This document shows, one piece after another, positions 3,125-28,364 of a stretch of 42,809 bases of DNA (within the stretch, counting starts at the first letter, position 1; every line of letters starts with the position of its first letter). The notes beneath the pieces were generated by a model, which did not search any database, was not told the DNA's origin, and saw only the letters and a program-made list of their open reading frames with translations. The position numbers and the translations under genes were made by a program. Origin of the DNA: a virus; the IMG/VR virus record IMGVR_UViG_3300035698_024397, positions 1 through 42,809 of that record; one strand, given 5' to 3'.

Positions 3125-3565
3125 CTATCGATAGGCTTGGATGGGGTGGAAGATGCAGAAGATAACATGCTTCACACTTGCAACGAAGCGATTGATGCGC
3201 ATACGAGTTTCGTTGTACGCATCGCGCACGGAGATGAAGACAAGCTTCATGTGCGCAATGAACTCTCTGATACTTTTGATCGAGAGTAGGATGCCATTAT
3301 AAATGGCAACGCAGAGTTCCATCAGGCGGAACTTATAGATAACCGCGGTAATGAGAGTACCGAGGATGGCTCCGCCCATGGCAATGGTGCCCGCTGCCCC
3401 AAACAGTCCAGAAATCAGAACTGATAGGGCAATCGAGAATGCAATGCCAGCAAGCCCACCAAAGTTGGTGGTAGTAATGAAACGATAGAGAGGCTTCACT
3501 TTCCATACAATCGAGAGTTCGAATGCAGAGACAGTGAAAGCAAATAGCACAATGGCAGTAACCAT
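3125..3565 (-). CDS. Membrane protein, three to four TM segments
   Basis: 146 aa from the ATG at 3565, which has AGGA six bases upstream; an in-frame TTG two codons earlier is less likely. TM segments are predicted at about residues 2-20, 36-55 and 57-78 (rich in Gly/Ala: LFGAAGTIAMGGAILGTLI), with a further weakly hydrophobic stretch at 85-100. The C-terminal half is a basic amphipathic helix. The Gly-zipper-like middle resembles channel-forming segments, but length and charge do not match a known holin. Function unknown. Confidence 0.65.
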   Translation of the reverse strand: MVTAIVLFAFTVSAFELSIVWKVKPLYRFITTTNFGGLAGIAFSIALSVLISGLFGAAGTIAMGGAILGTLITAVIYKFRLMELCVAIYNGILLSIKSIREFIAHMKLVFISVRDAYNETRMRINRFVASVKHVIFCIFHPIQAYR

Positions 3566-3584
3566 GAACAATCCTATCTGTAGA

Positions 3585-3643: not shown

Positions 3644-4195
3644 CTAGAAGGGCTCTTCTTCGCCTTCGGGCAGTTCGTTCACCGTGGAGGTGACGGCCGA
3701 AGCCATCTCCTCTTCGGAGAAGTCCACGTTCTCGGGCTCATCGGAGCTTTCGTCGGTGGCGGGAAGCTGCTCGGTGTTGCCAGCATCCTCGATGTTGGTG
3801 ACGACGCGAGCGCCACCAGTGGCCTGACCCTTGAACAGGGCCGGGCAAGCCGGTCCCTTCGGGTTGGCGGGACGAGCACCAAAGGTGAAGTCCGAAACGG
3901 CAACGGTCTTGACCGCACGACCGGGGCTACCGGCGTACTGACCATTGCGGATGGTGTAATCCTGGATGTCCAGATCACCAGCGAAGCTGACGACCTGACC
4001 GATCAGGAGGTGCTGAGCAGCAGCCACGGCACGAGCGTTCCAGAGAACGACCGTGATGAAGGTGGTCTTGCTACCGGTGCGACCGGTGTCGCAGGCGACG
4101 GGGACTTCGGCCTTGACGGCCTTCTGCCCATCGATGGTGAGTTCGACGAGATCGAACTCCGAGGCCACGCGGCCCATTCCGATGTTCTTCAACAT
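3644..4195 (-). CDS. ssb: Single-stranded DNA-binding protein
   Basis: 183 aa. The first 110 residues fit an OB-fold SSB: GMGRVASEFDLVEL, then KTTFITVVLWNARAVAAAQHLLIGQVVSFAGDLDI, the usual position of 'W-x-A-E..-L-KG..V-V-G-L'. A low-complexity acidic linker follows and the protein ends in PEGEEEPF, an acidic tip with a final Pro-Phe as in bacterial SSB, which docks partner proteins. It coats replicating phage ssDNA and probably works with the phage RecA encoded at 15.7 kb. A good -35/-10 promoter lies about 180 bases upstream on the same strand. Confidence 0.85.
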   Translation of the reverse strand: MLKNIGMGRVASEFDLVELTIDGQKAVKAEVPVACDTGRTGSKTTFITVVLWNARAVAAAQHLLIGQVVSFAGDLDIQDYTIRNGQYAGSPGRAVKTVAVSDFTFGARPANPKGPACPALFKGQATGGARVVTNIEDAGNTEQLPATDESSDEPENVDFSEEEMASAVTSTVNELPEGEEEPF

Positions 4196-4774: not shown

Positions 4775-5284
4775 TCAGTTGTATAACCAGTGGGGTAGGG
4801 AGACGGGGGTGTCAAATGACCCCATGGCTTCGTTGTAGAGCAGAGAAGCCAGGCGTCCATTGCCGTCGGTGAATGGGTGAATGTCGAGAAGCCAGCGAAT
4901 GACATCGCTGACATCACGACGATGCTCACGAAGAGAGCCCATGTCGTATGGCTCGATGGTATCTCGGTTGTGAGCAATGAGATTGTAGTTGTTGATCCAG
5001 CGGATCATGGTGTGTGTTACTTCATTGTGGTTGAGGGCGTGGCCTCCACTCTTGAAGTAAACAGGGGTATCGCGGTACCTGGTGACATCTTCGTTGAGGC
5101 AGCAGATGAGCTGCAATGCCTTGAAGATGATCTCGTGGGTGAGAATGCCTTGCCCGCGAATTGAAAGAAGATGATATGCTTGTACCATACCATCTACATT
5201 TAGAGGACCATCACCTTGAATGTGGACTTCTCGCGCGCAATAAGTCACTACATCACGGTGGATGAAGTCCATTTGGGAAGTCAT
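4775..5284 (-). CDS. Fic/Doc-family protein (putative AMP- or phosphotransferase)
   Basis: 169 aa. It carries the Fic active-site loop HPFTDGNGR at residues 136-144, with the catalytic His136 and the anion-binding GNGR. The usual last Arg of HPFx(D/E)GNGRxxR is replaced by Ser147 (GNGRLAS). Fic proteins transfer AMP or another phosphate-containing group from a nucleotide to a protein hydroxyl; Doc-type members phosphorylate EF-Tu. No inhibitory S/TxxxE(G/N) helix and no antitoxin partner gene is visible. The start has AAAGG nine bases upstream. A likely role is to modify a host target during takeover. Catalytic competence is uncertain because of the Arg to Ser change. Confidence 0.8.
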   Translation of the reverse strand: MTSQMDFIHRDVVTYCAREVHIQGDGPLNVDGMVQAYHLLSIRGQGILTHEIIFKALQLICCLNEDVTRYRDTPVYFKSGGHALNHNEVTHTMIRWINNYNLIAHNRDTIEPYDMGSLREHRRDVSDVIRWLLDIHPFTDGNGRLASLLYNEAMGSFDTPVSLPHWLYN

Positions 5285-7288: not shown

Positions 7289-10060
7289 TCAGACGATCTC
7301 GGTACGGAGCACGGCAATGAGGAGGTCCATCACGGAAGCCTCACCGTCGTGGTTGGGTGCGAACAGGATCCGGTCGATCCCATTCTCACGCTTCCAGGTA
7401 CGGCACTGCTCGCTGTGCTGGTAGAGAGCCACCACCATCTGTGTCGGATCATCACACCCCATGATGGTCTTCACAGCCCTGCGGTTGGCGTCCTGCCAGA
7501 ACTTGCGGGACTCGCGCACCTTGACGAGACGACTGGCCCCGGCGAACCCACCACTCTCGACCTCGTTGAAGTCGAAGTAGGAACGCTTGGGAGCCTTGTC
7601 GGCCAGACCACGGAACCACTTCTCGGCCTTGTCAGCACGATCCATGTACTCCGGGGTCACCTCCATTTCCAGAACGGAATGGTGGATGGGACGACGCTCG
7701 TGGTTGGCCAGCTTGACCAAGAGATTCGAGAACCTCTTCATGTAGTTGGTGTGCACCGTGTACAGGGAAGTCATGTACCCGTTGATGGGCTTGACCTCGT
7801 CTGCCACGATCTTCGGAACACGCGGGTCCAGCAAGAGGAAGAACCTCTCGATGACACCACCCGAGACCAGATTGGCCCAGGTGTTCTTGGTGTCCTGATT
7901 CACAGCCTTGAACCCAGCAGCATTCGTGCTCTGCGTCAAGCAGTCCACGATATCCTCGGTGGGAGCGAGCTGCACACGGCGGAAGTCCCGCATGGTCGCG
8001 TAGTATGCCATCTGGGAGTTGGCCCACGAACCGACACCGGGCGATGAAGCCATGGCGTCGATCACGGACTGAGCATCCGACGGGGCATACCCACTGAGCG
8101 AGGCCACGCTTTCCGGCATTCCGGAGTACGTGACGTTGTGGTTGACCACGTTGATGGGCGGGAGCACCTTCTTGAACTCGGCCACGGTCATACCCATTTC
8201 GGGGATATCACCTTCCGTGTTGTAGAGCACGGGCAGGAACGAGTCCAGGTCGATGTCCACGATGCTGTATTCACCGTAGGCATTCGGGGAACGAAGACCC
8301 ACCGCCTTGATACCATCGGTACCGAAGTTCCGAATCATCAGACGGACGGAATCGTCGAGATCCCAACCACCATGGAAGTTGAACAGCTTCCTGAACAGCT
8401 CACCCGGGTAGGAGATCCGACCGGTTGCTTCGTGATAGAAGACCTTGTCGGTGAAATCCTCCGAGACACGGTGACCTGCGAGGGCCAGCATCTCGTGGGT
8501 GGTGACGTGACCGTAGATAGCCCACGAAATGGGGAAGGCCATCTTTGCTCGCATCTTGTTCAGGAATCCCGTCCCGATGGTGTGCAGGAAGTACGCGCTC
8601 TGGTTGAGTTCGTATCCTTCCAGTGTCCACCGGTTGTACATGGTACGCATGTCCTTGATGATGCCCGGATCGTCGAGATCGAAGGCACCATCGGTGTCTG
8701 CGTAGGACTCCATGTACTTGGGGAAGATCCCCTTGCGGAGATCGGAGAGGACCGAAGTCCCGACACGCCTCAACTCGGTTTCGAGCTGATCGACCGGGAA
8801 CATGACCTCACCCATCCACGACAGGGACTGGTTGTCCGTGACGGGAGCATGGTGATCGTGATGCAGGTTGATTGCACACCACGCGCCATTGTCCACCATG
8901 GACAACTCCTTCTTGACGTTCTCGCTGTGACACATGATGTCGTAGCCAGTGTCGCCAATGATGAAGTCACCCTTGATGTACGCTCCTTCCCACAGGAACT
9001 GGATGTAGCCCGACTTGGCCTCGTGACGCAGGACCATACGATCCTTGTGAGTCCGAGCCGTCTTCTCCAGAAATCCACGGCTGAGCACGATCTGCCCATC
9101 GTAGTACTCCACCGGGACATCGTCGGGAGTGTCGAACACCTTGATGGTGAAGTCACTGTTCCCGAGGTTGTCGGAGGTGAACCTGTTGAAGTAGCGCTTG
9201 ACAGCCGTGATAGCCTTGAGGCGCTTGGCCAGCTTGTTGCTCGGGTTGAGCTTCAAGCCCACCACCTGTTCCAGTGCACCCCAGAACGGGTACTCCGGAA
9301 GGGTGATGACGGTGATCATGGAATCGTCCGCCCATGCCAGAGCAGCATCGGGGTGATTCCTGATGTCGAAGTCCATTCCGACCGGGGTGAACTCCACCCA
9401 GTAGTCGAGATGACCGACGAATTCCTCGATGAACGCCATGGAGTAGTGATCCCCGATGTCGTTTTCGATGAGAGCCTCGTTCTCCTTCAGCTCGTGGCTG
9501 TTGGGAACGTGACCCATGTTCGTCATGACCCGACGGTTGACGACCGGAAGGCCGAACTCGTCGAGCGACATGACCATGTAGTGCATGTGCTTCTTGGTGT
9601 GATTCATGTGATCCTCCTTGGATTCACTGAAGGCCGAAATCATGGCCTGAATGGTCAGTGCCGGATCGACACTGGTTTTTGCCACGTGGTGGTGACAGAG
9701 TAGCTCTGCCTCCTTCACGGGGTTCTTGCACTTACCTCCCTTGAGTGTGGGTGCACCACAGGTGTGGTTCTTCATGGGATCCTCCTTCGGATCGGGGTTG
9801 CGGTTGTACCATTCCTTGACGCGGACACCGGTGATGTCCTCGATGTTCATCTTGTATTCGGATGCGTCGAGATCGGGATGGTCAATCCTGATCCTGGCAT
9901 CCAGTTCACCGGCCTGTTTACCCGTGAGGTCGCCGGGATTGAGGCTCAGTAGAGTCACCGAATCCCTGTCAACGGCAAAGGCAACTTGTGCTAGAACATC
10001 ATTTGTGGTACGGTCGTCGTGCCACTCCAGTAGGAGTTCGACGTGATTGAATTTCTGCAT
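7289..10060 (-). CDS. Putative two-barrel RNA polymerase (YonO/QDE-1-like), N-terminal zinc finger
   Basis: 923 aa from the ATG at 10060, with AAAGGAGG five bases upstream. Residues 101-125 hold a C-x9-C-x10-C-x2-H zinc finger. Residues 321-364 read DGQIVLSRGFLEKTA and then QFLWEGAYIKG, which matches the first double-psi barrel of QDE-1-like polymerases ('DG-x-I-x-S' then 'Q-x-R..G-x-KG', with the catalytic Lys as K363). Residues 564-571, GGWDLDDS, resemble the second barrel's 'GGDLDGD' metal loop but lack the Gly. Residues 675-723 (GVGSWANSQ ... AAGFKAVNQD) resemble the helical region after it. Total length is close to YonO (about 900 aa). Strong internal SD plus ATG sites at 9775 and 9607 could give shorter forms. 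Unusual features: an altered metal loop and a G+C-rich sequence. It could instead be an unrelated virion protein. Confidence 0.45.
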   Translation of the reverse strand: MQKFNHVELLLEWHDDRTTNDVLAQVAFAVDRDSVTLLSLNPGDLTGKQAGELDARIRIDHPDLDASEYKMNIEDITGVRVKEWYNRNPDPKEDPMKNHTCGAPTLKGGKCKNPVKEAELLCHHHVAKTSVDPALTIQAMISAFSESKEDHMNHTKKHMHYMVMSLDEFGLPVVNRRVMTNMGHVPNSHELKENEALIENDIGDHYSMAFIEEFVGHLDYWVEFTPVGMDFDIRNHPDAALAWADDSMITVITLPEYPFWGALEQVVGLKLNPSNKLAKRLKAITAVKRYFNRFTSDNLGNSDFTIKVFDTPDDVPVEYYDGQIVLSRGFLEKTARTHKDRMVLRHEAKSGYIQFLWEGAYIKGDFIIGDTGYDIMCHSENVKKELSMVDNGAWCAINLHHDHHAPVTDNQSLSWMGEVMFPVDQLETELRRVGTSVLSDLRKGIFPKYMESYADTDGAFDLDDPGIIKDMRTMYNRWTLEGYELNQSAYFLHTIGTGFLNKMRAKMAFPISWAIYGHVTTHEMLALAGHRVSEDFTDKVFYHEATGRISYPGELFRKLFNFHGGWDLDDSVRLMIRNFGTDGIKAVGLRSPNAYGEYSIVDIDLDSFLPVLYNTEGDIPEMGMTVAEFKKVLPPINVVNHNVTYSGMPESVASLSGYAPSDAQSVIDAMASSPGVGSWANSQMAYYATMRDFRRVQLAPTEDIVDCLTQSTNAAGFKAVNQDTKNTWANLVSGGVIERFFLLLDPRVPKIVADEVKPINGYMTSLYTVHTNYMKRFSNLLVKLANHERRPIHHSVLEMEVTPEYMDRADKAEKWFRGLADKAPKRSYFDFNEVESGGFAGASRLVKVRESRKFWQDANRRAVKTIMGCDDPTQMVVALYQHSEQCRTWKRENGIDRILFAPNHDGEASVMDLLIAVLRTEIV

Positions 10061-10082
10061 TTGTCCTCCTTTGGACATGTGA

Positions 10083-10143
10083 TATAGGACATTCGCCTAT
10101 AAACACAAAAGAGCCACCCCCTAGTCGCATTAGGGAGTAGCTC
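10083..10143 (-). terminator. Hairpin module: terminator plus leader hairpin before the 923-aa gene
   Basis: On the minus strand a 12-bp-class stem (10143-10111, GAGCTACTCCCTA pairing with TAGGGGGTGGCTC) is followed by TTTT, a Rho-independent terminator for the 82-aa gene. A second inverted repeat, TATAGG/CCTATA (10101-10083), then stands before the SD of the next gene. The flank CTGTAGGCACARCATGAGC is shared with the module at 10,492-10,510. Confidence 0.65.
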
Positions 10144-10425: not shown

Positions 10426-10510
10426 TGGAAACATTTGTTCCATAAACACAGAAGAACCCTCCATACCTCGACCGAAATCAAGATATGAAGGGCTCATGCT
10501 GTGCCTACAG
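10426..10510 (-). terminator. Hairpin module: terminator plus leader hairpin before the 82-aa gene
   Basis: A 15-bp stem with three G-U pairs (10495-10481 with 10468-10454) around a 12-base loop ends in TTCTGTGTTT on the minus strand. A second hairpin, TGGAA/TTCCA (10426-10442), precedes the SD. The outer flanks match the module at 10,083-10,143 while the stem sequences differ, so the structure is conserved rather than the sequence. Confidence 0.65.
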
Positions 10511-10520
10511 TTTGCCAGGA

Positions 10521-11342
10521 CTAGCAGGTGGTCGGATCGATGATGATCAGGTCCTTGTCCTGGTTCCGTGCGTAGCCGACGCAGTTCGACGTGCCACCGG
10601 TGGAGCCATCCCAGACTCCGATGACGTAATCGGCCTTGTCGACCATGGCCTTGTTGCGGTCCATCATCTTGGAGGCGGAGTAACCCGGCTCGCAGATGTA
10701 GCGGACCTTGGTGCAGGTCTTCAGGAATTCCGCGAGATGATCACGGGACTCTTTGGGCCAGCGGGCATCGAATCCCTCGAAGGGGAGGAACGCCGTGTGA
10801 CGCAGACCGAGGTGATTGGCCAGTTCGGCAGCCCACTGATCGACACCCAGGGCTCCACCCCAGATGATGACGATCCCGTGAGTCTCACCGTAACCATCGA
10901 TGATCTCCTGGACCTGAGCCAGCATGGCCTTCTTGACCCGGGTACGAATCGGGTTCTTGCCGTAGCCACCGAGCTTGTTGGGACGGTGACCGGTGAAGAC
11001 GATGATCTTCAGTGGCTTCTTCATGACATTCTCCTTGTTGAGGTATGCTGAGGCGACGGGGTTGTCGACCCCATTGATTGAGCGCAGCAGTTCTGACGCA
11101 CGCTGAACTCCGGGAATACCAGCCATGACACTGACACGGTCCATTGGCTGGGGAGACGACTGATCGGTCATCTCGATGAGCTGGGGCTCCACGTGGACAC
11201 CGACACGTCCCTTGCGGAACAGTTCGGGGTCGCGGTGAACACCACAGACGTTGTAGCGGAAGTTGTCCACCACGAGGGTGAAGCAACCGTTGTTCTTGCA
11301 AAGCTCACTCTTCTTGGTGAGCGAATCGCATTTGGTATGCAT
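10521..11342 (-). CDS. SLOG-family (YpsA/DUF1273-like) protein with N-terminal zinc finger
   Basis: 273 aa from the ATG at 11342 (AAGGAG eight bases upstream). The N-terminal 40 residues hold C-x9-C ... CGVH, the same finger type as in the 923-aa protein. Residues about 107-273 are a SLOG domain: FTGHRPNKLGGY, then IIWGGALGVDQWAAELA, FLPFEGFDARWP, MMDRNKAMVDKADYVIGVWDGSTGGT. This is the full YpsA/DUF1273 pattern of a Rossmann-like nucleotide-binding fold. SLOG proteins bind or process NAD/ADP-ribose-like ligands. An internal ATG at 11024 has its own AAGGAG, so the 167-aa SLOG domain may also be made alone. Confidence 0.8.
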   Translation of the reverse strand: MHTKCDSLTKKSELCKNNGCFTLVVDNFRYNVCGVHRDPELFRKGRVGVHVEPQLIEMTDQSSPQPMDRVSVMAGIPGVQRASELLRSINGVDNPVASAYLNKENVMKKPLKIIVFTGHRPNKLGGYGKNPIRTRVKKAMLAQVQEIIDGYGETHGIVIIWGGALGVDQWAAELANHLGLRHTAFLPFEGFDARWPKESRDHLAEFLKTCTKVRYICEPGYSASKMMDRNKAMVDKADYVIGVWDGSTGGTSNCVGYARNQDKDLIIIDPTTC

Positions 11343-11362
11343 ATTGCATTCTCCTTGTATGT

Positions 11363-11441
11363 CACCACAGGTGGTGTTACCTATGGATCGTGGGGCAGAA
11401 GGGATCGAACCTTCACTACGTAGCAACCAGCTACTACCCCG
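11363..11441 (-). ncRNA. tRNA-like element lacking an anticodon arm, plus leader hairpin
   Basis: On the minus strand a perfect T-arm (GAAGG-TTCGATC-CCTTC, 11414-11398) is followed by TGCCCCA (11397-11391). That segment pairs at six of seven positions with CGGGGTA (11441-11435). Between them is a perfect GTAGC-TGGTT-GCTAC hairpin (11434-11420). The whole is about 51 bases, too short for a tRNA, and no anticodon arm or CCA is present. A CACCA/TGGTG hairpin (11376-11363) follows before the SD of the SLOG gene. It could be a decayed tRNA or a tRNA mimic used as an RNA-processing site. Confidence 0.35.
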
Positions 11442-11476
11442 GGCGTTATCAGACACCGGGCTGTATTACTGTGAGA

Positions 11477-11976: not shown

Positions 11977-12110
11977 CCCCAAATTTTTATATATATTTAC
12001 TTCTTAAGGGTTCCCCAAATTTTTATATATATCTACCCTTATAAGAAGTCTCCGAAATTTAGAGATTCATAGGTTTTCATACGTTTCGATTGCCCGCTAC
12101 AAATTTTTCC
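11977..12110. repeat. AT-rich direct repeats at the divergence point
   Basis: The 20-mer CCCCAAATTTTTATATATAT occurs at 11977-11996 and again at 12013-12032, with a partial AAATTTTTCCCC near 12100. The second copy is flanked by ACTTCTTAAGGG and CCCTTATAAGAAGT, an imperfect inverted repeat. The region has no gene and separates leftward from rightward transcription. DNA-unwinding or operator function is plausible; no promoter for the leftward block was pinned down. Confidence 0.6.
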
Positions 12111-14575: not shown

Positions 14576-14992
14576 TCAGTCTTCCTCGAAAGGGTCGATG
14601 TAACCGAACTGTTTCATGTTTTCTTCGTAAGTCATGATGGTTTCCATTCGACCAGCGATGACATCTTCAATGACATCAGGAACTTCATCACCTGATTCTT
14701 CAGCAATCTCGTGTATCATCTTCCACTCGTCTCCGCTGAAGGGAATCGGCACTATCTGGCCCCAAGGAAGAGAAATAAAGATGATACGATTGGACTCATA
14801 GTCCTGATCATTGAAATCAGAGTCATCAGGAAGAATCAGACCAGTCGCTTGGTCCACTTCTGGTTCTTTCTCTGCTTCTTCAGTATCATTCTTTGTTTCT
14901 TTGCGGAACAACGGCATGAAAGCTTCATAAAACCACAGCTTGATGACTTCTAGCGTTGTTTCGACAAAAAGTCTTGCTTTTTCTTTGGCCAT
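14576..14992 (-). CDS. 138-aa acidic protein with hydrophobic N-terminus
   Basis: The N-terminal 35 residues form an amphipathic or membrane-associating helix (ARLFVETTLEVIKLWFYEAFMPLF). A Glu/Asp-rich linker follows, and then a compact alpha/beta part (NRIIFISLPWGQIVPIPFSGDEWKMIHEIAEE). It is last of the leftward recA operon, overlapping the deformylase gene by 43 bases. No family recognised. It converges with the hydrolase gene, with one base between the stops. Confidence 0.6.
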   Translation of the reverse strand: MAKEKARLFVETTLEVIKLWFYEAFMPLFRKETKNDTEEAEKEPEVDQATGLILPDDSDFNDQDYESNRIIFISLPWGQIVPIPFSGDEWKMIHEIAEESGDEVPDVIEDVIAGRMETIMTYEENMKQFGYIDPFEED

Positions 14993-15495
14993 TGTTCAAC
15001 AAACTCCTTATATTGTATTTCGTCCAAATGGTCAACCATCATAGTACCGAGTAAATGGTCATTTTCGTGTTGGATGACTCTTGCGGTCACCTTTTCGGCT
15101 TCTAATTCATAAAAAGAGCCATTTTCATCATATGCCTGTAACAGACAACTGGCTGGTCGCTCAATCGAAAAAAACACGCCTGGAAAAGATAAACATCCCT
15201 CCACGAATTCTGAACTGCCTTCGAATTCGGAAAGAACTGGATTTATTGCAGTTTTCAGTTCTCGATTGTGCATGAACACGAAGACAGATTCAGATTTACC
15301 TATTTGGTTAGCCGCTAAGCCTAAACCGTCATTACCAAGGCAGAGTTCTTTCAAATGTTTCACTAGAGTTAGTGTTTTGTGAGAAATTGACGTTATCTGC
15401 TGAGTTGATGGAGTAGAAGTTTCCAGCCTCACTGAAGAAGTGGGTATTTCCAGCCTCCGGTTGCCATACAGTTTCAGTGAACTTCTCATCATCAA
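14950..15495 (-). CDS. def: Peptide deformylase
   Basis: 181 aa. All three deformylase motifs are present and in order: GLGLAANQ (residues 57-64), EGCLS (99-103), and HENDH (143-147). They supply the metal ligands Cys101, His143 and His147 and the catalytic Glu144. The enzyme removes the formyl group from nascent N-terminal Met. Phage deformylases can favour phage proteins or speed host shut-off in photosynthetic and other hosts. The start overlaps the zinc-ribbon stop (ATGA). Between ssDNA/repair and translation genes it suggests an early or middle operon. Confidence 0.9.
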   Translation of the reverse strand: MMMRSSLKLYGNRRLEIPTSSVRLETSTPSTQQITSISHKTLTLVKHLKELCLGNDGLGLAANQIGKSESVFVFMHNRELKTAINPVLSEFEGSSEFVEGCLSFPGVFFSIERPASCLLQAYDENGSFYELEAEKVTARVIQHENDHLLGTMMVDHLDEIQYKEFVEQWPKKKQDFLSKQR

Positions 15496-20080: not shown

Positions 20081-20237
20081 CGAGGCCATTGATCTTGTCA
20101 TAATTCGCAAAACTGAGACAGACAAACAAATATGGACTTATATATGTTATGGATGCTTATCATTCCTTAACCAGTACTATAAGAACGTTGAACTGGTAAA
20201 AGAAGAATGGAGTTCGCTACATGGGCGAAGAGATTGA
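20046..20237 (+). CDS. 63-aa zinc-ribbon protein
   Basis: CPAC (residues 7-10) and CYGC (34-37) form a zinc ribbon. It overlaps the previous gene by 35 bases and the next by 17, typical of this compact operon. The C-terminal 25 residues are charged and helical. No target is visible. Confidence 0.55.
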   Translation: MRWIVECPACNSEAIDLVIIRKTETDKQIWTYICYGCLSFLNQYYKNVELVKEEWSSLHGRRD

Positions 20238-24291: not shown

Positions 24292-25512
24292 ATGGATTAT
24301 AGCGCAAACCAACCAATCACGCCAGTTCAGGGCAATGAGCCATTTGCATTGAGAGCTACGGATTCTATTCCTGGTTTTGTTGTCGGTGCATTTTTCAACG
24401 CAGGTAGAGGTTCTAGGACCATCAGAACTGGTGTCTCCAAGAAGGGTTGGAGCAATACCAGCAGTATGTTCAGAAGTGGTATTCCAAATACGGTTCGTCC
24501 AAAAAACTGGCGACGTTTTGGTCACTATGATGCATTTTATGACGATATGGGCAAGACTTATAGTCCATTTCAGATGTTGGCCAAATTTGGTAATGCTGCG
24601 GCCACAAAAGGCAATCTGAGTGCTGAAGGCAGCAGACTTGGGGGATATGCCACACAGGCACGCAGAGAAGGCCTCCTCACAGCTAAAGGTGATCCGAGAA
24701 TTTTTGGTGCTGGCACTCTTGCTAGATTCAGTGCGCAGACTCAAATAAGTGCAGGTGCTGCAGGTGGAGGACTTTCCAACTTCCTCGGTGATGCAGCCAA
24801 AAGATTTGGTCAGACCGGCGGCAGTAAAGCAGCTTATGGTATATCTGCAATGGCTGCTAGAAATAGTCCTGCATCCAGAGGCGCAGCTGTTGCTATGACG
24901 GCACAGGGCACCATGAGCAGAACTTTCCTTGGTTATTCTGCTGTGGCACATGGAGGCGCTGACATTGGAGCGTCTAGATTAGCTGGGGGTTTAGGCTTTG
25001 GTAGTGTTGCCCAAGGAATGACATCAGCAGCAGACGATCTTGCTAAAGCGGGAATGAGAATTAATTCCGCAGGAAGCATTCAGGTAAGATCAGCTGGTAA
25101 AGCCTTTCTTCAGTCTGGAATGGCAGGGCCAGAAAGTTTTCGCAGAGTAGGTAATACTCGTGCTTTCACTGGAGCATTTCGTGCAGGAAACAAGGCAGGC
25201 ATGAAAGTTGCCGGTACCAGGATGCTTGGGACAGTGGCTCGCAGGGCTCCTGTTATTGGTCAGGCTATGATTGCCTATGATGTCATGAAGCTTGGTGGAG
25301 AGGCTATGAAGTCTGGAGTTTCTTTTGCTGGAGATGCAGTTGAGTCATTCCAGGGTTCAATTCAAAAGCCCATATTTGGTATGGGTTATAAAGATACACA
25401 ATTTGCTGCAACCTCTAGAGCGAGAGGAGTTATGGCAATTCAGAATAGTCGTCTAAACGCTAGAAGTATGATTGGAAGTGAAGCGGGAGCCATGGCTGCC
25501 CATTTCGGATAA
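24292..25512 (+). CDS. 406-aa Ala/Gly/Arg-rich protein
   Basis: Very rich in Ala, Gly, Ser and Arg with Met, and poor in acidic residues. Several short hydrophobic stretches (FVVGAFFNAG near the start, VGRAPVIGQAMIAYDVM-like near residues 320-335) suggest membrane interaction. The stop overlaps the TerL start by one base (TAATG). Such large basic, glycine-rich proteins beside packaging genes may be internal virion proteins released with DNA. No family is recognised. Confidence 0.55.
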   Translation: MDYSANQPITPVQGNEPFALRATDSIPGFVVGAFFNAGRGSRTIRTGVSKKGWSNTSSMFRSGIPNTVRPKNWRRFGHYDAFYDDMGKTYSPFQMLAKFGNAAATKGNLSAEGSRLGGYATQARREGLLTAKGDPRIFGAGTLARFSAQTQISAGAAGGGLSNFLGDAAKRFGQTGGSKAAYGISAMAARNSPASRGAAVAMTAQGTMSRTFLGYSAVAHGGADIGASRLAGGLGFGSVAQGMTSAADDLAKAGMRINSAGSIQVRSAGKAFLQSGMAGPESFRRVGNTRAFTGAFRAGNKAGMKVAGTRMLGTVARRAPVIGQAMIAYDVMKLGGEAMKSGVSFAGDAVESFQGSIQKPIFGMGYKDTQFAATSRARGVMAIQNSRLNARSMIGSEAGAMAAHFG

Positions 25513-28364
25513 TGTTAGATATTAGAAAATCCCACAAAGAATTTAGAGCAAAACTTGAGGCCCTCAGTAGAGAAGACCTGCTCGAAATTATCGAGGCTCA
25601 AGATCCAGAACTGATCAAGGGCATCAATAGAATTGAATGGGTGTTCGCTAACAAGCTGCAGCACCTCAATTGGTCGACAGGCGAAAGAATTGAAGGTCGA
25701 GATCTCACCAAGAGAGAACTGGCACTCCTGGTAGACATTCCCTTTGAATTCTCTGAAGAGCTGTCCAAAATGGGACTAAGCGAGAGACAACAGAGAGATC
25801 TTCACGTTGCTTCGGATCCGATTCTATGGGCGAGAAGCTATCTCAGTGCAAAGCCCAGAGTTTATCAGATCATGATCCTTAGAGATGAGTCTCCTTTCCG
25901 GATCCTGCGAGCAGGACGACGACTCGGGAAAACTTGGACGATGGCTGTTCTGTTATTGTGGTATTCTTACATAACAAACAATGGCAAGAGCCTAGTAGTA
26001 ACTCCTATGAAGTCCCAGGCTGGTCTAATTTATGATGAATGTATTAGTCTTGCTAAAGCAGGTGGAATTGTCAATGAATCCATAACACGTTCAGTTATGA
26101 GCCCAAACCCTGAAATTAATTTCTCTAATGGCAGCTCGATACGATTCTTCACCTCTGGCATGAAATCCAATAACAAATGTTTTACCCCTGATCATGATGT
26201 TTTGACTGCAGATAGTGGTTGGAAATCTATTGTGGATCTTGAGGCTGGTGAGCAAATCATGTCTTTTGATCCTGAAACAAATGATATGGTTTGGAAGACC
26301 GTAGAGCATATGTGGGAATATGAATATGACGGAGAGATCATAGATTATAGTGGTAGACAAGCATCTTATGCTGTAACCCCAAATCATAAAATGATATGCA
26401 AGACAAGAAGCCCAAATAGTCAATGGAGCTTTAGGGAAGCAAAAGACATGATCAACAATCTTGTATTACCATCTGTATCAGGAAAGATTGTTCAAGATGA
26501 AACAAACCAATTTTCAAAAGAAGAACTGGAACTTTGGGGCTGGTGGCTAGCAGAAGGTTCTGGCTTTATAGGTAAAATGGTTCGACTATCTCAGAGTAAG
26601 GAAGATGGACGAAACCGAATGATAGAATTAGCTCAAAAAATGGGTTTGCACTATACTACTCCCAAAAAAGAAATCAGGATAGAATGGAAACCTCCCATTT
26701 TTAGCGGCATCAATGCATACGATAAATTTATACCCAGAGAATTATTGGTAGAAAAGAATAGGCAATCGCTACTTGACGGATTGATTGGCGGAGACGGCTG
26801 CCCCATGCAAAATGGATGGTCTTATGGTAGTTCTTCATGGGCACTGATCAATGGAGTTCAAGAACTTGCTATTTCTTTGGGTTATAAGTCTAACATGAAT
26901 AAACAGAAAATAACTTATGAATATTTGAGAAATGAGCCCTCTGATCATTGGCGTGTTTCAATTATGGAAGGTAAGCAGGAAACTTTTACCAATATTGAAA
27001 ATCAAGAGATAGTACACTATAAAGGTCAAGTATATTGTCCAACCGTTCAAGACACCGGAGTGCTTTTGGTCCGTCGAAACGGCAAAATTCATATCAGTGG
27101 GAACAGCGATGTTACTCGTGGTCAGGAAGCCCACTTGATCGTTTTGGACGAGCTTGATTACATGGGTGAAGATGACATGGACGCACTTCTTGCTATGCTT
27201 CAGAGAACGGATGAGAATCAGCCAGAGAAGATGCTTGTTGCTGCGTCGACCCCATCAGGTCGTAGAGCCAAGCTGTGGGAGTGGGTTAATTCTAGTCGAT
27301 TTAAGGATTACTGGTATCCTTCGTATTGCAACCCATATTGGAGTCTCGATCAAGAAGAGTATTTCAGAGAACTGTATAGTGAGATAGGTTACCGACACGA
27401 AATTGAAGCAGACTGGGGCGAAGATGCAGATGGTGTCTACCCCAGAAAGTATGTTGATAGGTGTTTTGTACCAGATCTATCTGATGATCCAGAACAAGAA
27501 GATAAGAGTTGGGAATATCAAGTTCCAGCCCATAGGTTCAATGATCCAGGATCCTTTACTGTGTTTGGTGTTGACTGGGATAAGTATGGGGCCGGGACCA
27601 ATATTGTAGTCCTACAGATGTTCGAAGCCGGATATCACGATCCCGCTTTGGCCGGAAGTATGAAATTACTCTACAGAGAAGAAACTGCTAGAGAGGAATA
27701 TACTCTTACCAAAGCTGTTGATCGACTGATAGAAATGAATAAGATCTTCCAGCCTCACTACATCTATGTGGATAGAGGATTCGGTGAAGCACAAGTTGAG
27801 CTTCTGAAGAAGTATGGAACACAGAATCCCCATACGGGTCTAGCTACAAAGGTCATTGGTGTCTCATTTGCTGAGACTATCGAAATGCCTGATCCTTACA
27901 CCGGTGTTAAACAGAAAAAGGAAATCAAACCTTTCATGGTTGACACATTGCGTCAATACCTGGAAAAGGAAGCAATTTCATTCTCAGGTAGAGACGAAGA
28001 GCTTTATCTGCAGTTGATATCTTATATTGTAGCAAGAGTTACCCCAACAGGTAGACCGGTCTTCGAAATGGCTGGTTCTAGTGCAGATCACTGTCACGAC
28101 GCTTTGATTTTGGCCACTTTGGCAATCAAGCAAAACTATGATGATTTGATGATGTATAAGTCAACAAATTATGTCAGAACCATAAGAAGTAATATCATAG
28201 ATCCCCTTATTGCGTTGTCTACGAATTCTTCAGAAAGATCTGCGGAAGAAGATCTCATAGAGGAAAGATTCGAGTCAAAAAGTATGGCTCCTGTTAAGAT
28301 AAAGAGATCTAATACAGTACGACGTGCCAAGATAAGAAAAGGCATATCTAGGAGAATGTTCTGA
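25512..28364 (+). CDS. terL: Large terminase subunit, interrupted by an intein
   Basis: 950 aa in one frame; 641 aa after intein removal, normal for TerL. The ATPase has Walker A RAGRRLGKT (residues 133-141) and, after the intein, Walker B LIVLDELDYM. The RNase-H-like nuclease shows VFGVDWDKYG, YIYVDRGFG and DHCHDALILA with its metal-binding Asp residues. TerL pumps DNA into proheads and cuts concatemers. The intein sits just before Walker B, a highly conserved place, so ATPase activity depends on splicing. The start overlaps the previous stop; the end overlaps the next start (TGATG). Confidence 0.92.
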   Translation: MLDIRKSHKEFRAKLEALSREDLLEIIEAQDPELIKGINRIEWVFANKLQHLNWSTGERIEGRDLTKRELALLVDIPFEFSEELSKMGLSERQQRDLHVASDPILWARSYLSAKPRVYQIMILRDESPFRILRAGRRLGKTWTMAVLLLWYSYITNNGKSLVVTPMKSQAGLIYDECISLAKAGGIVNESITRSVMSPNPEINFSNGSSIRFFTSGMKSNNKCFTPDHDVLTADSGWKSIVDLEAGEQIMSFDPETNDMVWKTVEHMWEYEYDGEIIDYSGRQASYAVTPNHKMICKTRSPNSQWSFREAKDMINNLVLPSVSGKIVQDETNQFSKEELELWGWWLAEGSGFIGKMVRLSQSKEDGRNRMIELAQKMGLHYTTPKKEIRIEWKPPIFSGINAYDKFIPRELLVEKNRQSLLDGLIGGDGCPMQNGWSYGSSSWALINGVQELAISLGYKSNMNKQKITYEYLRNEPSDHWRVSIMEGKQETFTNIENQEIVHYKGQVYCPTVQDTGVLLVRRNGKIHISGNSDVTRGQEAHLIVLDELDYMGEDDMDALLAMLQRTDENQPEKMLVAASTPSGRRAKLWEWVNSSRFKDYWYPSYCNPYWSLDQEEYFRELYSEIGYRHEIEADWGEDADGVYPRKYVDRCFVPDLSDDPEQEDKSWEYQVPAHRFNDPGSFTVFGVDWDKYGAGTNIVVLQMFEAGYHDPALAGSMKLLYREETAREEYTLTKAVDRLIEMNKIFQPHYIYVDRGFGEAQVELLKKYGTQNPHTGLATKVIGVSFAETIEMPDPYTGVKQKKEIKPFMVDTLRQYLEKEAISFSGRDEELYLQLISYIVARVTPTGRPVFEMAGSSADHCHDALILATLAIKQNYDDLMMYKSTNYVRTIRSNIIDPLIALSTNSSERSAEEDLIEERFESKSMAPVKIKRSNTVRRAKIRKGISRRMF
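26178..27104 (+). mobile_element. Intein with LAGLIDADG homing endonuclease, in terL
   Basis: 309 residues (223-531 of the ORF). It begins at Cys223 (CFTPDHDVL, block A) and has a block-B TPNH (290-292) motif. The two endonuclease helices are LWGWWLAEGSG (341-351) and LLDGLIGGDG (420-429). It ends with HISGN before Ser532. The usual penultimate His of inteins is Gly here, with the His three residues before the terminal Asn, so block G is atypical. The acid residues in both LAGLIDADG helices are kept, so the endonuclease may be active. A spliced TerL would have Lys222 joined to Ser532. Confidence 0.85.

Follow-up and report, generated by a model that had tools for sequence, protein, structure and literature searches.

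QDE-1 and plant RDR2, RNA polymerases of eukaryotic RNA interference, consist of a single chain, and RDR sequences carry the same DGxGxIS, KG and post-barrel helical motifs as the phage protein analyzed here. The catalytic barrel of such enzymes is thought to be older than LUCA, and few features of cellular transcription are as conserved as the D-x-D-x-D loop, the motif described for the two-barrel superfamily. Single-chain two-barrel enzymes have also been described in phages, including jumbo phages, and so have pairs of them (PMC5467207, PMC7824862, PMC10770324). YonO of Bacillus phage SPbeta is a single chain of about 100 kDa with DG, R, KG, R-x-P and Asp motifs, and in these features it resembles our protein (PMC5467207). 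The virion RNA polymerase gp66 of the crAss-like phage phi14:2 is likewise a single-chain two-barrel enzyme with an R-x-P-N motif, but it is much longer (2180 aa). Phages that have two two-barrel RNA polymerases are known to package one and to make the other after infection (PMC10770324). P23-45 has gp64 (non-virion, 616 aa) and gp96 (virion), and this number of two enzymes per phage is the same as in most near-full-size relatives of our protein; RNA synthesis by gp64 has been proven (PMC10770324).

The DNA analyzed here (the window) is a linear 42.8-kb IMG/VR record of 42,809 nucleotides, and its minus strand contains at 7289-10060 a candidate gene for a single-chain two-barrel RNA polymerase of 923 aa, the paralogue at position A, which was recognized from its open reading frame, ribosome-binding site, fold, alignment and tree. 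The longest open frame runs from 10078 to 7289 and encodes 929 aa. The ATG at 10078 has no Shine-Dalgarno-like site, unlike the ATG at 10060, which is preceded by AAAGGAGG (10065-10072, minus strand), so the start at 10060 with 923 aa is right. An earlier note on this DNA therefore had the correct span (7289-10060) and the correct numbering of K363 and D567/D569/D570. Residue numbers below are those of the 929-aa frame unless stated otherwise, and they are obtained by adding 6 to the 923-aa number. All motifs quoted in the note were found in the protein with the same spacing, namely YYDGQIVLS at 325-333, IQFLWEGAYIKGD at 359-371, HGGWDLDDS at 569-577 and PGVGSWANS at 680-688.

Neither Pfam, PHROGs nor the PDB sequences gave a match, whether they were searched with the window protein or with the family profile. 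No relative was found in annotated phage genomes by tblastn with three family members, and a direct scan of IMG/VR with the window protein alone found nothing. The terminase and portal of the window are related to those of Moorella phage MTATph1, Bacillus phage KLEB27-3 and Acinetobacter phage ME3, and when contigs chosen by a related portal were searched with the window protein, relatives appeared in 3 of 30 (best E 5e-17 to 3e-23). The alignment of these first relatives led to 39 loci, and single-protein scans added more. The relatives are about 20% identical and occur in many IMG/VR contigs, the largest of which are 160-216 kb long. Searching bacterial and archaeal genomes with the family profile gave 141 pattern matches and 0 relatives. 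Comparison by hhalign with YonO relatives or P23-45 gp64 gave nothing significant (probability 0.6% for YonO), which would place the window protein outside the YonO family by profile homology. Sequence and profile searches together gave no significant tie at the sequence level between the window protein and any known RNA polymerase, QDE-1 and RDR2 included. Within the family, two relatives with a DxDGD loop have additional N-terminal parts: L091:4098-7301 has a NADAR domain fused in frame (E 1.2e-22), and L115:3480-6836 has about 250 extra residues with a sub-threshold match to a 2OG-Fe(II) oxygenase (E 0.035).

Conservation was read from an alignment of 27 sequences, the window protein and 26 relatives that are 19-22% identical to it. 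D327, G328, K369, G370, K389, E391, D573, D575, R596, P598, N599 and G602 were invariant, as were G683, D712 and R753, and N687 was nearly so. This invariance indicates that the quoted motifs are not chance strings, and the residues are of the kinds that a two-barrel polymerase would be expected to keep; the invariant set of YonO relatives consists of DG, R, KG, R-x-P and Asp. The presumed first barrel (DPBB-B, beta-like) covers residues 312-405 approximately (8864-9145, minus strand), with boundaries deduced from the strand pattern of the model and the motif order, and its order of DG, KG and K is the same as in YonO. It contains YYDGQIVLS with the invariant D327 and G328 (9080-9106, minus strand; compare DGCGMMLP of YonO), IQFLWEGAYIKGD with the invariant K369-G370 (8966-9004, minus strand; SFMVRLPWVKGLLV in YonO) and NVKKE with the invariant K389 and E391 (8906-8920, minus strand). 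K369 and K389, the two conserved basic residues of this barrel, are the presumed first and second active-site lysines. The presumed catalytic barrel (DPBB-A, beta'-like) was placed at residues 515-609 approximately (8252-8536, minus strand) from model strands and fold matches, again with inferred boundaries; according to the alignment it holds the metal loop HGGWDLDDS with D573, D575 and D576 (8348-8374, minus strand; D567/569/570 in the 923-aa numbering) and RSPNAYGEY with the R-x-P motif (8267-8293, minus strand). In alignment and model, PGVGSWANS (8015-8041, minus strand) begins the helical part after the catalytic barrel, at a bridge-helix-like position. The beta-like and beta'-like motif sets thus sit in one chain, unlike in the multisubunit RNA polymerase of jumbo phages. 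The added finger that the earlier note had proposed is present as a motif, C107-x9-C117-x10-C128-x2-H131 (9686-9760, minus strand), and the window protein is the only member of the 27-sequence alignment that has it; the AlphaFold2 model is unreliable there.

The AlphaFold2 model of the window protein, built on the 27 sequences, had a mean pLDDT of 66, with residues 215-820 mostly at 70-90 and residues 1-212 unreliable. Its matches in the PDB at ranks 1-19 were all two-barrel RNA polymerases, led by QDE-1 (E 2.4e-10, probability 1.00) and the RDR2 of maize and Arabidopsis, and including gp64 and gp62 of P23-45-type phages (E 1.7e-4 for gp64 of a close P23-45 relative) and gp96. Isolated double-psi barrels came after rank 19 with weak scores, and crAss gp66 was absent among the PDB matches listed. 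The significant matches in BFVD were P23-45 gp64 (E 1.6e-4) and two uncharacterized proteins of uncultured Caudovirales, A0A6J5M9G6 and A0A6J5NTF7 (E 5e-41 and 7e-38), which, compared by fold, probably belong to the same family as the window protein. A second AlphaFold2 model, of a DxDGD paralogue and built on 19 sequences, reached a pLDDT of 84.5 and a pTM of 0.83. Its PDB matches were RDR2 and QDE-1 (1.8e-7, best fold matches as for the first model) and gp64, followed after the polymerases by expansins, FwdD, aspartate decarboxylase and designed double-psi barrels. Since the underlying alignments overlap, the models are only partly independent of each other. Against the solved polymerases with significant matches, global TM-scores were low (mostly 0.2-0.4, rmsd 10-17 A), so the domains are either placed differently relative to one another or poorly modelled. 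As far as fold recognition goes, the models place the window protein in the two-barrel RNA polymerase superfamily. Structure prediction and fold comparison gave the answer that the earlier note had predicted; neither a confident structure without double-psi barrels nor a clear virion-protein homologue appeared.

Among the records searched with the family profile, exactly two copies of the gene, on the same strand and 11-15 kb apart, occur in most near-full-size relatives, those larger than 200 kb; several contigs below 200 kb have a single copy, and contigs may be incomplete. In these paired relatives copy A is upstream and copy B is downstream. A tree of 34 sequences was divided into clade B (19) and clade A (15), each with support of 100/100, and clade A consisted of the window protein as the deepest branch, a group named after L097 and the DxDGD group. 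Because the window protein forms a long branch, its precise position in the tree is less certain than the division into A and B. Two neighbouring genes served as positional markers. The SLOG-family (YpsA/DprA-like) gene at 10521-11456 (minus strand) has homologues directly upstream of paralogue A in two relatives, and in four relatives homologues of the small ORF at 3125-3571 (minus strand) are found on the upstream side of paralogue B or close to it. From these positions and the tree, the window protein is most likely copy A, and its partner copy B is probably located beyond the left end of the window. Contig G010 has a like arrangement of exonuclease, AAA, RecA and copy A. The earlier note, whose fold reading itself stands, did not see this second copy per genome, nor the reversed order of metal loop and R-x-P described below. 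In several relatives an ORF of 333-347 aa also recurs between copies A and B, in much the same position (L151:5643-6650, L152:9927-10964, L157:7302-8342). The one from L152, the only member tested, had no match in Pfam or PHROGs; it has no RecA domain, and the RecA of the window matches another gene, so the identification of this ORF as RecA was dropped.

The metal loop divides the family in a different way. The consensus is GGxDxDD in copy B and the L097 group, the window protein has GGWDLDD, and the third A group has DQDGD or DSDGD. DxDD is thus fixed in three lineages, which are copy B and two of the three A lineages, and the canonical DxDGD is found in one A lineage; the changed loop DLDD that had been noticed in the earlier note is real, and the loss of Gly that it had proposed agrees with the alignment, where one residue fewer keeps the next basic position in register. 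By comparison, the loop is DLDGD in QDE-1 and RDR2, DNDGD in YonO, DYDGD in P23-45 gp64 and DFDID in phi14:2 gp66. The window protein has D-x-D-D in place of D-x-D-x-D, whereas relatives at the same genome position have D-x-D-G-D, and by its loop we would file it as a variant rather than as a canonical member of the superfamily.

The position of R-x-P also differs from that in the described enzymes. In RDRs and cellular beta', R-x-P comes before the metal loop. The order is the same in YonO, P23-45 gp64, P23-45 gp96 and crAss gp66 (RIPN in phi14:2 gp66), with a separation of about 40 residues, but in every family member seen R-x-P is downstream of the loop. The distance from the loop to R-x-P is 19 residues in the window protein and 22-24 in clade B and the L097 group, and in the DxDGD group R-x-P is further downstream, behind an insert. 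Family members had no conserved R-x-P upstream of the metal loop; an upstream R-I-P-I-P of the B copies was rejected as a candidate, since it is part of the first barrel strand and the A copies lack it. The downstream position suggests a rearranged catalytic barrel. In the model, the strands are compatible with the order of strands 1-2, helix, strands 4-5, helix, metal loop, strand 6 and R-x-P strand, where the numbering is our own. A simple circular permutation of the barrel does not fit this strand order and was rejected, and the relocation of one strand pair fits better; alternatively, RSPN may be a convergent motif with another role. That the family is a lineage with the R-x-P strand after the metal loop and with RNA synthesis by a shortened D-x-D-D site is a tentative reading, to which we give a little less than even weight.

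The best explanation of the locus is a single-chain two-barrel DNA-dependent RNA polymerase of a large tailed phage, copy A of a pair, and our confidence in it is high; the enzyme is most likely phage-specific and probably of the non-virion kind. In known phages with two such enzymes, one is a virion and the other a non-virion form (PMC10770324, PMC7598289), so the window protein could also be the member of the pair that is packaged in the virion and injected to transcribe the first genes. We consider this unlikely, because the gene is in a minus-strand block of replication type outside the structural operon and, unlike P23-45 gp96, is not fused to a tape measure protein. A catalytically dead state of the DxDD copies, which would then support an active DxDGD copy in a structural or regulatory role, could be proposed from the broken D-x-D-x-D spacing and from some phages that have one DxDGD and one DxDD copy. 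The three Asp and both Lys are kept in the DxDD copies, and seven relatives (G036-G039, G042, G049, G050) carry only L097-type and B-type copies, with DxDD in every such copy whose sequence was read. These contigs with DxDD copies only mean that DxDD is probably catalytic, and we give the dead state a low probability; the DxDD copies are probably active.

A two-barrel polymerase with another substrate or template, such as an RNA-dependent enzyme (RDR/QDE-1), a primase or a DNA polymerase (PolD), is still less probable. QDE-1 and RDR2, which copy RNA or DNA templates, are the best fold matches, but such matches track the fold and not the template, and both YonO and gp64, the known phage relatives, depend on DNA (PMC5467207, PMC10770324). 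We see hardly any chance for a non-polymerase double-psi-barrel protein whose fold match is an artefact of shallow alignments. The low global TM-scores and the models built on 27 and 19 sequences would be in keeping with it, but two models with different queries, though with overlapping alignments, gave the same enzymes and no other folds, and the conserved residues coincide with active-site motifs of polymerases. As for other polymerase types, the Rpb1-type multisubunit domain PF00623 was absent in the 13 records tested, with a positive control in 14 genomes; for the T7-type PF00940 the window protein had no Pfam match, and a genome-wide search, run with no positive control, was also negative.

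The analysis shows the family, the conservation of its motifs, the predicted fold, the pairing of the gene in relatives and its position in the window. For the window protein we infer catalysis, a DNA template, metal binding by DxDD, the class of genes transcribed and the barrel topology. In the preferred reading, a DNA-dependent RNA polymerase, the first double-psi barrel would provide K369 and K389 for stabilizing the NTP phosphates, and D573, D575 and D576 of the second would hold Mg. The model has helices at 681-696, 707-716 and 720-740 after the catalytic barrel, and this helical part, with the invariant G683, D712 and R753, may act as bridge helix and trigger loop. RecA, SSB, peptide deformylase and SLOG genes share the minus-strand block of the polymerase gene, and the structural genes are on the opposite strand, an orientation also found for P23-45 gp64. 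This placement suggests a non-virion enzyme made early. Because pairs are known to be split into virion and non-virion forms and because the gene is placed in the minus-strand block, as gp64 is, we favour the non-virion role, in which the enzyme would be made early after infection and stay outside the virion. Since the window protein is most likely copy A of an A/B pair, the phage probably has two enzymes for different gene classes, and it would use them as P23-45 uses gp64 and gp96.

The window gene very probably encodes a single-chain RNA polymerase with the fold of cellular and RNA-interference polymerases. It belongs to an unnamed family that is carried in pairs by large phages and has, at the predicted active site, a metal loop of unusual shortness and a changed order of motifs. 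In the literature accessible to us we found no description of the family, of the D-x-D-D loop or of the reordered barrel, and the supplements of a 2024 survey might list members. Neither Pfam, PHROGs nor profile comparison picks the family up, so a search built on D-x-D-x-D would overlook the majority of its members. Three lineages with a stable D-x-D-D, and a relative that has D-x-D-G-D at the same place in the genome, provide a natural comparison for the purpose of the spacing, and the changed motif order, if true, would be a rare rearrangement of the catalytic barrel. The family also hints at a possible way for a group of large, uncultured phages to transcribe their genes independently of the host polymerase.

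Several other features of the window were recorded. TACTATAA occurs five times in the window, on the plus strand at 20175, 32972, 36273, 39926 and 40816 and nowhere else, and four of the five sites are TTACTATAA. Each site is followed, about 38-46 nt further on, by a plus-strand gene (20221, 33017, 36315, 39965 and 40862), and TACTATAA is a candidate late phage promoter, with no obvious -35 element; its reading by either polymerase is speculative. Relatives lack the motif, and TTACTATAA was rejected as a group-wide promoter, since portal relatives show no enrichment beyond permuted words. The gene of the terminase large subunit (25512-28364, plus strand) is interrupted by an intein with a LAGLIDADG-type endonuclease domain. 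The minus strand contains a phage-encoded peptide deformylase (14950-15495, E 1.1e-31) and a weak Fic/Doc domain protein (4775-5284) near an SSB-like gene (3644-4195). Two strong terminator-like hairpins on the same strand (10111-10143 and 10454-10495) have a common 19-nt repeat and flank a small ORF upstream of the polymerase gene. At 11977-12036, in a long intergenic stretch between divergent genes, there are two 24-nt AT-rich direct repeats of CCCCAAATTTTTATATATATTTAC, 36 nt apart.
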